In this document: positions 9,480-43,551 of the stretch, in pieces
How positions within the stretch are numbered: position 1 is the stretch's first letter
How the letters are laid out: each line of letters opens with the position of its first letter
Assembly: GCA_022843745.1 (NCBI GenBank)
Contig: JALHNB010000003.1
Coordinates: 124,001 to 188,000 of the forward strand
Length of the DNA stretch: 64,000 nt
Origin: Anaerolineae bacterium
GTDB taxonomy: Bacteria > Chloroflexota > Anaerolineae > Aggregatilineales > Phototrophicaceae
Direction: 5' to 3'
Made by a program: the position numbers and the translations under genes
Notes under the pieces: generated by a model
The model's input: the letters and a program-made list of their open reading frames with translations, nothing else
Told to the model about the DNA's origin: nothing
Databases searched by the model: none

Positions 9480-9570
9480 TAGTGGCGAATATCGCCGTTA
9501 TGTTCCGATCTAGTGGCGAATATCGCTGTTATGTCCTGATCTAGTGGCGAATATCGCTGTTATGTCCTGG
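9480..9570. repeat. 31-bp tandem repeat, 2.9 copies, overlapping a gene end
   Basis: Copies start at 9480, 9511 and 9542 with a period of exactly 31 bp and core TAGTGGCGAATATCGC. Copies 2 and 3 are almost identical. The third copy supplies the stop codon and the last codons (HNSDIRH) of the GvpU-like gene on the minus strand. Three contiguous units without unique spacers are not a CRISPR array. Confidence 0.9.
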
Positions 9571-33414: not shown

Positions 33415-34488
33415 ATGGTGAAGAAAAAAGAAAAGCCGGAAGGCGATAGCGACCCTACTCTTTTTGTACAAGACGAAGGGCGTATGAAGGCGTTAGAAGC
33501 TGCCTTGCAAGACCTGACCAAGCGCTTTGGTGATGGAACGATTATCCGCCTGGGAGATGCTGTTCACCTGGCTGTTGAGGCCATCCCCACCGGATCATTG
33601 GGTGTTGATATTTCCATCGGCGTAGGCGGGATTCCACGCGGACGCATTGTTGAGATTTATGGCCCGGAATCAAGCGGTAAAACGACCCTCTGTTTGCATG
33701 TGATCGCCGAGGCTCAAAAACGTAACGGCCTGTGCGCGTTTATCGACATGGAACACGCGCTTGACCCGGCTTATGCCCATCGCTGCGGCGTGAACATGGA
33801 CACGCTGTATGTCGCGCAGCCGGACACAGGCGAAAATGCCCTGGAAATTACCGAAGCTCTGGTGCGCTCTGGTGCGCTGGATGTGATCGTGATCGACAGC
33901 GTGGCGGCACTCGTCCCCCGCGCTGAAATTGAAGGCGAAATGGGCGACAGCCACGTCGGTTTGCAGGCGCGTCTGATGAGCCAGGCTTTGCGCAAGCTCT
34001 CTGGCGCGATCAAGCAGTCCAACGTGTGCGTGATGTTCACCAACCAGATTCGCGAAAAGGTGGGTGTCATGTATGGAAGCCCCGAAACGCAGCCGGGTGG
34101 TCGTGCGCTCAAATTTTATGCCAGCGTGCGCCTGGATATTCGTCGTGTCGAGGGCATCAAGATCGGCGGCGATACCGTTGGCAACCGCACCCGTGTGCGC
34201 GTCACCAAAAACAAAGTCGCTGCGCCCTTCCGTGAAACCGAATTTGACATCATGTTCTATGAAAATGGGATCAGCAAAACAGGCGAGATCGTCGATTTTG
34301 GTGTTGAACTGGGCCTGATAGAAAAGCGCGGCGCGTTCTACCGTTATAACGACGGCCTGCTGGGACAAGGGCGCGAAAACGCGAAAGTATTCCTGAAAGA
34401 AAACAAAGTCGTAGCCGACGAAATTGAAGACGCGATTCGTGCGCATTATGGCCTGCCAACAACAGTTGCGCCGCCGCCTGCGCAGTAA
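33415..34488 (+). CDS. recA: Recombinase A
   Basis: At 357 residues the protein has normal length. It forms filaments on single-stranded DNA, drives strand exchange and promotes LexA self-cleavage. Visible landmarks are Walker A GPESSGKT at 83-90, [19 protein letters not shown], Walker [11 protein letters not shown], loop L1/L2 regions ([40 protein letters not shown]) and [17 protein letters not shown]. The usual last acidic residues are replaced by [10 protein letters not shown]. The protein is intact. No recX or lexA is adjacent. Confidence 0.98.
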
Positions 34489-34649
34489 TTTAAGAATCAG
34501 TGTAGAATGTATTAAATAGCCTTAAAGACAGGGTGGCTTACAGGCATCCTGTCTATATTGTAAGTGCTAGTTAACCCAAGAGGTTGACACAAATTTCGTA
34601 TATTGCTATGATGGCAGAACAGAAATTCTTAAGGAGAGACTTATATATC

Positions 34650-35108
34650 ATGGCTACCTATAATCCCGATCACGAAAAAGCTCTGAATGCAGCAATGAAA
34701 GGCGTTAAGGGCGCGACTGCCGAGAAGATGTTCGGCTTCCCCGCCTACAAGGTCAACGGCACACTCGCCGTCAGCGTCAAGGCTGAAGGCATCGTCGCTA
34801 AAGTCGGCGAGAAAAGCGCTCAGAAGCTCATCGGCAAAGCAGGCATCAAAGCCTACGAGCCGCTGCCAGGCCGCGTCTGGAAAGAGTGGGTTCTGATTAC
34901 CAGCGACTTTGACAAGAACAAGTCTGTTTTTGACGAAGCTGCCAAGTATGTCGCTGCTGATACGAAGACTGCCGCCAAAGCTGAGAAGCCTGCCAAGGCA
35001 GCACCCGCGAAAGCCGCCGCCGCTGAGAAGCCTGCTGCCAAGAAGCCCGCTGCTCCCAAGAAAGCCGCAACGACAGACAAGAAACCGACTACAAGTAAAA
35101 AGAAATAA
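34650..35108 (+). CDS. TfoX/YjbR-like domain with histone-H1-like Lys/Ala tail
   Basis: A 152-residue protein. Residues 1-95 form a small alpha/beta domain (EKMFGFPAYKVNGTLAVSVK, KLIGKAGIKAYEPLPGRVWK) of the TfoX N-terminal or YjbR type. Residues 100-152 are a tail of AKAEKPAKAAPAKAAAAEKP character, rich in Lys, Ala and Pro like histone H1. Such tails bind nucleic acid non-specifically, so the protein may be nucleoid-associated. AAGGAGAG precedes ATG 34650 by 11 nt. The frame upstream of that start is weak. A hairpin follows the stop. Confidence 0.72.
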   Translation: MATYNPDHEKALNAAMKGVKGATAEKMFGFPAYKVNGTLAVSVKAEGIVAKVGEKSAQKLIGKAGIKAYEPLPGRVWKEWVLITSDFDKNKSVFDEAAKYVAADTKTAAKAEKPAKAAPAKAAAAEKPAAKKPAAPKKAATTDKKPTTSKKK

Positions 35109-35157: not shown

Positions 35158-35192
35158 TATAATGTCCCGATCATTGGAGCAAAGAGAGGGAC

Positions 35193-36494
35193 ATGATGAT
35201 TGCAGAAATTGATGCCATAATGAGCGCTGAGGTCAAAGCAGGTGGCCCTGGCGCAGCGATAGCGATTGCAAAAGACGGAACGGTTGTGCATCGCGCCGGA
35301 TATGGATTGGCGAATGTCGAGTGGAATATTCCGAATCAAGCCGATACTGTATTCCGATTAGCCTCAATCACCAAACAATTTACCGCCGTAGCGATTATGA
35401 TTCTCGCCGAACAGGGTAAACTCCGCGTTGACGACCCGCTTACCAAATTTCTGCCGGATTACCCCACCAGCGGACATCACATCACCGTCCATCACCTGCT
35501 GACCCATACCTCTGGCATCTTCAGCTATACCAGCGACCCAGACGCGATCAATAAGCTCCTGCTCGATAAATCCCCACAGGAAATATGCGATTCGTTCTCG
35601 CGCATACCCTTTGACTTCAAACCCGGCGCACGCTATCTCTATAACAATTCGGCCTATATTTTGCTTGGCATGATTATCGAAAAGCTGTCTGGCATGAGTT
35701 ATGCCGAATTTATCCAGAAGCATATTTTTGACCCCCTGGGCATGACCAAATCGTATTATCTAAGCAACGAGCCAATCGTCTCCTGTCGTGCATCTGGCTA
35801 CGATGAAGGGCCAAATGGAATCCAAAACGCACGCTATCTGAGCATGACTCAGCCTCACGCAGCAGGTGCGCTGGGGTCTACAGTGGACGATCTGATTTTG
35901 TGGAATCAAGCGCTGGTGGAAAATCGTATCATCTCCGCCGAGTCGCTGGCGCAGATGCACACCTCGGCTGTACTGGATGATGGTACCGCAACTGATTATG
36001 GTTATGGTTGGGGACTCGAGCCTTATCAACAACATCGGGCTTTCCATCACGGCGGCGGCATTTTCGGTTTCAGCACCTATATCTCCTATCTGCCTGATGA
36101 CGCGCTCAGTATCGTCGTGCTGACCAATTATTCCGGCTTCGACAGCAGCAAAATTGCAGGCATGATCGCCCGCCACATGCTTGGCCTGCCCGAAGTCAAG
36201 CACACGCCGATTGAATTGAGCGCAGATAGCCTCAAAAAATACGCGGGTTCTTATCGCATGGATCGTTACCCCGGAACTTTAAAGGTTGTGGCCGAGCCGG
36301 ATGGCACATTAACGCTCCACGAAGGACGGCCTACGACGATTGTTCCGATCAGCCAGAGCGAGTTTTCCGTACCCAACAACTCTGAAAAAATGGTTGTATT
36401 TTCGGATGAGCAGGATGGGGTGTTCACAAAGATGACCTTGAGCGCCGCATTCAGCACCGAAATCACCCGCCGTGTACCCGATGAGCAAGCATGA
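35193..36494 (+). CDS. Serine beta-lactamase/PBP-family (class C-like) protein
   Basis: 433 residues with a Beta-lactamase (PF00144-type) domain to about 340 and a small C-terminal domain. The active-site set is SITK (Ser 58, Lys 61), YNN (Tyr 150) and HGG (His 286) in place of KTG. There is no signal peptide, so it may act in the cytoplasm as an esterase or D-amino-acid peptidase rather than as a drug-resistance enzyme. The stop TGA overlaps an ATG that opens a 7-codon mini-ORF leading to the TIR-like gene. Confidence 0.9.
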   Translation: MMIAEIDAIMSAEVKAGGPGAAIAIAKDGTVVHRAGYGLANVEWNIPNQADTVFRLASITKQFTAVAIMILAEQGKLRVDDPLTKFLPDYPTSGHHITVHHLLTHTSGIFSYTSDPDAINKLLLDKSPQEICDSFSRIPFDFKPGARYLYNNSAYILLGMIIEKLSGMSYAEFIQKHIFDPLGMTKSYYLSNEPIVSCRASGYDEGPNGIQNARYLSMTQPHAAGALGSTVDDLILWNQALVENRIISAESLAQMHTSAVLDDGTATDYGYGWGLEPYQQHRAFHHGGGIFGFSTYISYLPDDALSIVVLTNYSGFDSSKIAGMIARHMLGLPEVKHTPIELSADSLKKYAGSYRMDRYPGTLKVVAEPDGTLTLHEGRPTTIVPISQSEFSVPNNSEKMVVFSDEQDGVFTKMTLSAAFSTEITRRVPDEQA

Positions 36495-36514
36495 ATAGTG
36501 AGGATCAAGGATGA
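36491..36514 (+). CDS. Mini-ORF 1, MNSEDQG, in a translational chain
   Basis: ATG at 36491 overlaps the stop of the beta-lactamase-family gene (ATGA). It is followed by six codons and a TGA at 36512-36514, which itself overlaps the next ATG. GAGG sits 7 nt upstream of that next ATG. Whether this is translated is inferred. Confidence 0.35.
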   Translation: MNSEDQG

Positions 36515-36530
36515 ATAGTGAGGATCAAGG
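36491..36530. repeat. 20-bp tandem duplication of start codon and ribosome site
   Basis: Two exact 20-bp units, 36491-36510 and 36511-36530, each begin with ATGAATAGTG and end in GAGGATCAAGG. They are followed by ATGAATCAGG, the TIR-like gene's start. The end of the beta-lactamase-family gene is a degenerate earlier unit. Confidence 0.92.
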
Positions 36531-36534
36531 ATGA
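36511..36534 (+). CDS. Mini-ORF 2, MNSEDQG, in a translational chain
   Basis: Identical to mini-ORF 1. Its TGA at 36532-36534 overlaps the ATG of the TIR-like gene at 36531. The chain beta-lactamase gene, mini-ORF 1, mini-ORF 2, TIR-like gene is thus linked by three ATGA overlaps. Confidence 0.35.
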   Translation: MNSEDQG

Positions 36535-37166
36535 ATCAGGACGAGTATTACAGCGACGAAGAAGATGAGGATGAGCCATTAGAGGCCTATTGTGTTCGCT
36601 GCAAACAAACCGTCGAAGTCGAAAATGCGAAGGCCGTATGGACGCGACGGGGAATGCCTGCCACGCGCGGTGACTGCCCTGACTGTGGTGGAACGGTCTT
36701 TCGCATGGGACGCACCGCCGCCCACAGCAAGATGAATCGTCCAGCAGCAGTTCAAGTGGCTGCCAACAGCCGCGCCAAACTGCCGCAGGATACCGCTTAT
36801 ATCAATTTTGCCGTTCAGGACGAAATTGTCGCTGTACAAATCGCCGCTGATCTGGAAAAAATCGGTATTGCAAGCTGGCTGCACGATGCCGAGGCCGCAG
36901 AAGCCGATTCGACACAATGGGCGGGTGGCGTTCATCCCGCGCTCAGCGAGTGCGCCCGTATGGTGTTCCTGCTGTCACCCTCGGCGCTGATCTCGGAAAG
37001 TGCCGAAACTGCATGGCGCTTCTTCAAGGAAAAACGCAAGCCCATCGTCATTGCGCTGGTAGAGACGGCAGAGCCGCCGGATGCCATTCGCCGCAGTCCT
37101 CGCTTTGATTTCATCAGCGATTACAAACTGGCTTTCCGTCAAATGGTGCAGGCGTTAAGCCAGTAA
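36531..37166 (+). CDS. Zinc-ribbon (DUF5679-like) plus TIR-like domain protein
   Basis: A 211-residue protein. The first 18 residues are very acidic. Residues 19-65 form a zinc ribbon with CVRC (21, 24) and CPDC (49, 52), like DUF5679. Residues about 86-205 look like a TIR domain: AYINFAVQDEIVAVQIAADL, GIASWLHDAEA, WAGGVHPALSECARMVFLLS and SPSALISESAETAWRFFKEK. Glu 159 falls where the catalytic Glu of NADase TIR domains usually is. TIR proteins either cleave NAD or serve as adaptors. No known defence partner (Sir2, SAVED, STING, Thoeris) is next to it. Start and translation are discussed under the tandem repeat. Confidence 0.72.
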   Translation: MNQDEYYSDEEDEDEPLEAYCVRCKQTVEVENAKAVWTRRGMPATRGDCPDCGGTVFRMGRTAAHSKMNRPAAVQVAANSRAKLPQDTAYINFAVQDEIVAVQIAADLEKIGIASWLHDAEAAEADSTQWAGGVHPALSECARMVFLLSPSALISESAETAWRFFKEKRKPIVIALVETAEPPDAIRRSPRFDFISDYKLAFRQMVQALSQ

Positions 37167-42708: not shown

Positions 42709-43551
42709 ATGCTGGTAGAACTTGCTGTTGGCGATGCTTACGGGGCTGGTTTTGAATATGCCGATGAGATGATTGAAAAACATAATAATCTCTCGCGATA
42801 TATTCAACATCCCCGTCATCGTGGAATATGGCCCGGGCGCTACACAGACGATACCCAGATGAGCATCGCCATCTCGGAGCTTATTATTTCAGGCGAATCC
42901 TGGACACCGCTGAATATCGCAGGCGCTTTCGTCAAAGCTTTCAAGCGTGATCCACGAGAAGGTTATTCTGGAAACTTCTACGAATTCCTTCAAGCAACAA
43001 AAGATGCACAGGATTTTCTGACAAGAATTATTCCGGATAGCGACAAGAGTGGGGCGGCGATGCGCGCTGCTCCTATTGGAATATATCCTGACATCTCCGA
43101 AATCATTGAAAAGTGTTCTATTCAAGCCAGCATTACCCATAACACACCTGATGGTATTCAGGCCGCCTGTGCCACTGCATTAGCTTCACATTATTTTCTT
43201 TATGATTTAGGTCCAAAGCATGAGCTAGAGGCTTTTCTTAGAACTCATGTACCCGGTCAAATGTGGAGCTATGAGTTACCTGCTAAAGTAAAGGCCAAAG
43301 GTTGGATGAGCGTTCGTGCAGCAATCCTCGCCGTGATGCGAAATGATCGCTTAAGCGCTCTGCTTCAAGATTGCGTCAATTTTCGTGGGGATGTCGATAC
43401 CGTCGCGACTATCGCACTTGCTGTGGCTTCATGTAGCCATGAATATGCCCAGGAAATACCCCAAAATTTGATTTATGGACTTGAAAATGGGCAATTTGGC
43501 AGGGATTATCTACTGGAATTGGACAAAAAGCTTTTTGAAATTCAAAAATAG
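42709..43551 (+). CDS. ADP-ribosylglycohydrolase (DraG) family protein
   Basis: 280 residues. The magnesium-binding signatures are present: AVGDAYGAGFE, RYTDDTQM (Thr-Asp-Asp) and RGDVDTVATIALAVA near the C-terminus, with SGAAMRAAPIGIY between. These enzymes remove ADP-ribose from proteins or nucleic acids or hydrolyse related compounds. The N-terminus starts only seven residues before GDAYG, and an in-frame stop occurs five codons upstream, so a short start or slight N-terminal loss is possible. Codons are more AT-rich than in neighbours, notably in 43100-43550, which may mean recent transfer. Twenty-five bp separate it from the C39-like gene. Confidence 0.88.
   Translation: MLVELAVGDAYGAGFEYADEMIEKHNNLSRYIQHPRHRGIWPGRYTDDTQMSIAISELIISGESWTPLNIAGAFVKAFKRDPREGYSGNFYEFLQATKDAQDFLTRIIPDSDKSGAAMRAAPIGIYPDISEIIEKCSIQASITHNTPDGIQAACATALASHYFLYDLGPKHELEAFLRTHVPGQMWSYELPAKVKAKGWMSVRAAILAVMRNDRLSALLQDCVNFRGDVDTVATIALAVASCSHEYAQEIPQNLIYGLENGQFGRDYLLELDKKLFEIQK

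Follow-up and report, generated by a model that had tools for sequence, protein, structure and literature searches.

Two identical seven-codon open reading frames stand between a serine hydrolase gene and the gene for a TIR-like protein in an Anaerolineae genome, and each of them begins on the stop codon of the frame before it. The locus raises the question of how such a chain comes about, and of whether the number of its units could set how much of the downstream protein is made. The window, that is, the whole stretch of DNA analyzed here, comprises 64,000 nucleotides (G000:C3:124001-188000) of the 7.96-Mb draft genome G000, and all coordinates are given in the window unless another contig is named.

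A tandem repeat that chains itself

Across the junction the window sequence, its positions rechecked, reads CAAGC ATGAATAGTGAGGATCAAGG ATGAATAGTGAGGATCAAGG ATGAATCAGG. Direct reading and a tandem repeat search both place two identical 20-bp units at 36491-36530 of the + strand (36491-36510 and 36511-36530), followed by the ATGAAT of the TIR-like gene; Tandem Repeats Finder gives 36486-36536, with a period of 20, 2.5 copies, and 96% matches. The hydrolase frame ends in GAT GAG CAA GCA TGA, and its TGA at 36492-36494 lies inside the ATGA at 36491. From this stop the order is mini-ORF 1 (MNSEDQG and a stop, 36491-36514, + strand), mini-ORF 2 (the same peptide and a stop, 36511-36534, + strand), and the start of the TIR-like gene, with every step joined by ATGA and the co-directional genes linked by three consecutive NTGA overlaps of -4 nt. 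An earlier note on this DNA had described 20-bp tandem units that each contain a start, a GAGG, and a stop overlapping the next start, and that description is exact. Coupling is reported to be most efficient at spacings of -4 to +3 nt, and the -4 nt overlap is the commonest spacing of all and couples well (PMC12548453). The junction is probably one of translational coupling that has been expanded by tandem duplication.

The 20-bp repeat is more than chance. When exact repeats with a period of 10-80 and at least two copies were counted, 246 kb of the contig held three head-to-tail repeats, compared with 0, 1, and 0 in three mononucleotide shuffles. On both strands of the contig, a large ORF joined to a second one through two successive mini-ORFs occurs once; a single mini-ORF bridging two ORFs of at least 80 codons occurs in nine cases (6 + 3), some of which are probably spurious ORFs. 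Once the repeat exists, arithmetic accounts for most of the chain. The unit starts with ATGA and its length of 20 is 2 mod 3, which makes each copy a seven-codon ORF whose stop lies over the next start. To put numbers on this, we duplicated in silico the 8-40 bases after each of 1161 + strand ATGA on contig C3, and scored self-chaining when the ORF of the first copy stopped exactly on the second ATG. With periods of 2 mod 3, 9978 of the 12771 simulated duplications chained themselves (78%), and 924 of 1161 did so at period 20; with other periods the count was 0 of 25542. An ATGA-led duplication with a period of 2 mod 3 tolerates the gain or loss of a unit, and the earlier claim that the chain survives a change of one 20-bp unit follows from the same property.

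The repeat also carries an initiation site. The Shine-Dalgarno core of the TIR-like gene is a GAGG at 36520-36523 (+ strand) in the second unit, with its equivalent at 36500-36503 in the first, and such a GAGG stands 7 nt ahead of the second and third starts only, those of mini-ORF 2 and the TIR-like gene. For these two the anti-Shine-Dalgarno duplex energy is -6.4 kcal/mol, and for mini-ORF 1, without a clear site of its own, it is -2.0. Since the energy is -2.0 before the array and -6.4 inside it, the array brings an ordinary site that is absent from the hydrolase tail. In a survey of 177 contig ORFs, whose starts were picked by Shine-Dalgarno strength in a way that flatters genes, the median was -6.6 and 44% had a site no stronger than that of the TIR-like gene; a site this strong was present at 10% of 2000 random positions.

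With 0, 1, 2, 3, and 4 units, the predicted openness of the Shine-Dalgarno core was 0.24, 0.41, 0.40, 0.41, and 0.48, and that of the start region was 0.46, 0.46, 0.45, 0.49, and 0.59. One unit already supplies the Shine-Dalgarno site of the TIR-like gene, and the step from none to one is predicted to weigh more than the next two copies. Because the site and the start are the same with at least one unit, and accessibility is nearly constant at one to three, no strong copy-number effect is predicted from sequence. The same constancy, together with the presence of the unit in just 1 of 98 genomes, leaves the earlier proposal of a tunable translational dosage device unsupported; tuning of dosage by unit number appears unlikely.

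The flanking genes and the same junction in relatives

The gene families had been named correctly. Upstream, at 35193-36494 (+ strand), lies a 433-aa serine hydrolase of the beta-lactamase superfamily (Pfam PF00144, 1e-77). It falls below the curated cut-offs in the 25 listed of 48 NCBIfam matches, so that by those it is no named beta-lactamase, and it scores 105.4 bits against the best class C beta-lactamase model, whose cut-off is 415; the assignment reaches the PF00144 superfamily and not the named class. This family is common, with 19 matches in G000 and matches in 51 of 61 genomes, and the nearest paralog stands at 44%.

Downstream, at 36531-37166 (+ strand), the 211-aa product combines DUF5679 (1.6e-14) with TIR_2 (1e-10), and many genomes of the order contain relatives of full length. 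Its start is backed by the N termini of orthologs, which are D/E-rich and several of which open with M/V/L-N. In an alignment of 37 sequences inspected by eye, no invariant Glu stood at the expected place after a conserved W, a place that we take to be the site of the catalytic glutamate in NAD-cleaving TIR effectors. The best PADLOC match had an E value of 0.018, which is nothing meaningful, and DUF5679 was absent from the open-licence literature searched. As a separate observation, proteins with DUF5679 + TIR_2 are found widely across the order and share a conserved W..GVHPAL motif, without an obvious catalytic Glu. Runs of D and E in a nascent chain destabilize translating ribosomes; the TIR-like protein and its orthologs have such a run near the N terminus (SDEEDEDE, within 36531-36590), and it could interact with the coupled start.

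Two further + strand genes precede the hydrolase. The nearer, at 34650-35108, is presumably YjbR/TfoX-like, a name given on weak similarity (Pfam TfoX_N, 0.028, below cut-off); the other, at 33415-34488, which we take to be recA-like, marks the start of a block shared with relatives. DUF5679 + TIR_2 genes adjoin recA-like and YjbR/TfoX-like genes in some genomes.

The TIR-like protein was matched in 59 of 61 genomes, G000 included, with many matches spanning one domain only, and even its nearest relatives are only about 67-68% identical. For comparison of the junction we used 36 ortholog loci, 29 of them from the best 30 matches (the window's own set aside) and seven from a scan of contigs of relatives labelled Chloroflexi or Anaerolineae/Anaerolineaceae, with one Bacteroidetes. 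L004 and L037, two of the 36, seem to come from one contig, and several loci have short flanks, down to 72 bp upstream in L027. By tblastn, 10 of 36 loci have the YjbR/TfoX-like gene immediately before the TIR gene, 6 of 36 have the recA-like gene (79-82% identity), and within the flanks covered, several of them short, the hydrolase is found in 0 of 36. The hydrolase-TIR junction looks specific to this genome. Furthermore, the upstream stretches of the 36 other TIR-gene loci, read by eye, hold no 20-bp array, and a search of 98 family genomes, with one mismatch allowed, located the 20-bp unit in G000 alone. The identity of the two copies and the restriction of the unit to one of the 98 family genomes searched are consistent with a recent event.

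The hydrolase and TIR-like genes also differ in promoter-like boxes. A TATAAT matching 6/6 lies at 35158-35163 (+ strand), 35 nt before the hydrolase start and with TGC ahead, like an extended -10; the best box of the TIR-like gene in the window matches 4/6. A stricter general promoter scan lists neither of these, and it returned 3 sites compared with 2.3 expected. On the + strand these were one ahead of the YjbR/TfoX-like gene (34584-34612) and a weaker one within the hydrolase gene (36139-36166). Among the orthologs, with TIR starts chosen by script and a few of them doubtful, 23 of 36 have a box of at least 5/6 within 100 nt before the start and 11 of 36 have a 6/6 box. The corresponding rates were 21% and 1.6% in random 100-nt stretches of C3, and 7% and 0% inside TIR genes (n = 240). 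We infer that the main message for the TIR-like gene is now the hydrolase mRNA. Loss of a promoter of its own is not certain, because 13 of 36 orthologs are without a box of 5/6 or better.

A second array and wider scans

G000 contains another period-20 array, on the minus strand of contig C18 at about 43375-43433 (loci L084 and L113). There, an ORF ending in KRKAKGNAP, the mini-ORFs MSKGNAP and MSKGNAL, and a 290-aa ORF starting with MSTRID are all ATGA-linked. The array runs to 3.1 copies, between which there is one mismatch, and its unit, which includes AAAGGA, is unrelated in sequence to that of the window. For the upstream ORF, similarity to PKD/Ig-like domains is weak and stays below cut-offs; the downstream 290-aa ORF has no Pfam match up to an E value of 1.

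This second array bears on several explanations. The mini-ORF could be a regulatory leader peptide that acts through its sequence, for example by acidic residues that stall or abort translation as in mgtQ, an intergenic small ORF reported to need its acidic codons (PMC8092293). In favor of this, MNSEDQG contains E and D, and a D/E-rich run also opens the TIR-like protein. Yet C18 encodes the unrelated MSKGNAP, and a DNA search (rather than a peptide search) found the unit of the window in none of the other 97 family genomes, so that we hold a leader peptide to be very improbable. Alternatively, the array could be an artefact of the assembly, a draft in 117 contigs with 4.04% contamination. However, the unit boundaries are clean, the flanking frames are intact, and the gene junctions are coherent at both arrays, and we would give an artefact very little credence.

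In a selected translational relay, the number of units would vary in populations and set how many ribosomes reach the TIR-like gene. In favor of a relay, one genome holds two period-20 arrays that are independent yet alike in design, each unit of which has a purine-rich Shine-Dalgarno-like core; both periods are 2 mod 3, which has a chance of 1 in 9 if periods are free; and a 2.246-Mb scan at periods of 10-90 brought up no other real junction array. That scan of G000 yielded 38 tandem arrays and 96 NTGA junctions, for which the expected number of arrays on junctions ranges from 0.03 (coding rate) to 0.36 (non-coding rate); the 2 observed are counted after one spurious case was dropped, and one of the two had been preselected by the earlier note. 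The candidate dropped, a period-11 junction on C20, has an upstream ORF antisense to a more gene-like ORF and a downstream ORF of only 62 codons. In G000, period 20 is not generally overrepresented: seven arrays have period 10, seven have period 14, and two have period 20. Nor is G000 richer in arrays, since its relative G027 has 12 in 0.4 Mb, none of them on junctions, compared with the 38 in 2.246 Mb. Two repeats of other kinds were seen along the way: a 31-bp tandem repeat of 2.9 copies at 9480-9569, outside the ORFs of a simple gene call, and recurring short repeats, alike by eye, of GTCTATTG and TAGTCNTTAG type at 1241-1299 and on other contigs of G000.

Against the relay stands its distribution. 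When the whole of G000 was searched by pattern, three ATGA spaced by 20 bp turned up in four places, two of which are true repeats. Across the family, the pattern occurs in 46 places in 31 of 98 genomes (9 for a reversed control pattern), and by eye only two of the 46 are true period-20 repeats, both of them in G000 and none in the other 97. In the phylum sample, where purines were required at the Shine-Dalgarno place, period 20 gave 17 rows in 4 of 321 genomes. Fourteen of these rows, in G195 and G218, are repeats, and one in G237 is not; the four loci read among the 14 (L224, L226, L235, and L238) are, by eye, intergenic repeat clusters off gene junctions. The purine-core repeats in the 320 other phylum-sample genomes lie off junctions where read, and a scan of viral contigs for period 20 with GG fixed in the core gave 0. 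No further period-20 gene-junction array was recognized in the genomes scanned, in a survey that covers arrays with three ATGA at period 20 and, through the purine-core patterns, periods 21 to 23. The period controls gave 0 of 321 genomes at period 23, 1 of 321 at period 22 (imperfect, in G195), and 13 of 321 at period 21, numbers too small for a test of selection on period mod 3. Period 21, read as pattern rows, is no clean control: the rows listed are mostly ATGARGG-type heptamer tracts, along with a 21-bp array derived from heptamers in G403 and one non-repeat each in G245 and G418.

In G195 (L224-L238) and G218 (L226), tandem 20-bp ATGACAGARRGG and ATGACATGTGAGGG arrays lie by intergenic repeats that contain GGATCC or TCATCCC and are MITE-like by eye. 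Long ATGARGG-type heptamer tracts occur in G145, G155, G164, G223, G401, and other genomes, and with a 7-bp unit the ATGA recurs in all three frames.

No variation in unit number was seen, the unit being confined to one genome of 98, and according to the folding predictions one, two, or three units make no clear graded difference. We therefore regard a selected relay as unlikely. We think it similarly doubtful that the lineage repeatedly builds self-chaining 20-bp Shine-Dalgarno/start relays at junctions, with copy change keeping the operon and adjusting downstream translation, although the unrelated array on C18 speaks for this reading. A second, unrelated array of like design in one genome is not what a single slip would lead one to expect, and the C18 array pulls weakly against a one-off accident.

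Known systems and a probable origin

The closest parallels are mycobacterial MIRUs and bicistronic leader ORFs. MIRUs are longer than 20 bp, and in MIRU-VNTR typing they are tandem and of variable copy number. They are reported to enter at the start codon of a gene in a way that gives -4 nt coupling and, like the array, are gene-junction repeats with an internal ORF in -4 nt overlap with the next gene (PMC12548453). The internal ORF coupled by -4 nt at a gene start, the same overlap logic as in MIRUs, would suit a MIRU-like element, a mobile short repeat at gene junctions whose internal ORF preserves coupling. MIRUs are described as dispersed and apparently mobile (PMC12548453), whereas the 20-bp unit, even with one mismatch allowed, occurs at one place only in the 7.96-Mb genome, with no copies dispersed across junctions. 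In addition, the C18 array differs in sequence, and both arrays look duplicated in place rather than inserted. We consider a MIRU-like element extremely improbable.

A bicistronic leader ORF contains the Shine-Dalgarno site of the next gene. In each unit of the array, too, a short ORF holds the next site, a GAGG 7 nt ahead of the following ATG, and ends in a stop that overlaps this ATG. Bicistronic short ORFs have natural and engineered uses in delivering ribosomes to the next gene (PMC12548453, PMC5995908). The array is natural, has two copies, and lies behind a full-length gene, not at the beginning of an mRNA. Minigenes are likewise mini-ORFs near a downstream start, and are reported to raise or lower translation; txe mg2 and the double mini-ORF before Bacillus subtilis ycbK have two codons and, in the available portion of the source, are not described as tandem start-segment repeats, unlike the seven-codon tandem units here (PMC8708949). 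Leader genes also place a short ORF near a structural gene, whose translation they are proposed to raise by reinitiation, but their spacing peaks at 10-11 bp and they lie in 5' leaders (PMC4833913), whereas the array has a -4 overlap inside an operon. Finally, short tandem repeats at translation starts are reported as TAACTGA heptamers in Beggiatoaceae and as promoter-to-start tracts in Moraxella; some start-codon repeats overlap the end of the upstream ORF, their length changes in repeat-unit steps, and a translational role is proposed for the Beggiatoaceae heptamers, which show little Shine-Dalgarno character and bring stop codons in every frame (PMC4679880). The unit of the array, by contrast, combines a Shine-Dalgarno site, a start, and a stop and chains itself. 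In the open-licence literature, as far as its text was available, no tandem start-site array of this design was found.

On balance, we think it fairly likely that a short, recent tandem duplication expanded an ordinary stop-start overlap, with the coupling junction kept, the mini-peptides functionless, and the extra units near-neutral. In such a history, the serine hydrolase would first have come between the recA/YjbR-like block with its -10-like box and the TIR-like gene, to which it became joined by ATGA; the difference itself comes from the comparison, and its direction, an insertion, is our reading of the absence from relatives. A segment running from GAGG to ATGAAT, that is, the Shine-Dalgarno core and the TIR gene's own start, would then have been duplicated with a period of 20, probably by slippage between near-identical CAAGSATGAAT stretches. 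The TIR-like protein may now arise in two ways, from ribosomes that terminate on the hydrolase and reinitiate by way of the mini-ORFs, and from direct initiation at the GAGG of the unit. The mini-ORF peptides would have no function of their own. The first unit would matter because the Shine-Dalgarno site comes with it, and further units would have little effect or cause a mild loss at each relay step.

The locus has implications for the annotation of short ORFs. When a start segment at an ATGA junction is duplicated with a period of 2 mod 3, chained mini-ORFs usually result, even as a by-product, and this offers a null model against which such ORFs can be judged. The array is also a simple test bed for reinitiation. 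If its units do relay ribosomes, slippage would change the output of the downstream gene in a frame-neutral way, unlike phase variation that switches the reading frame.
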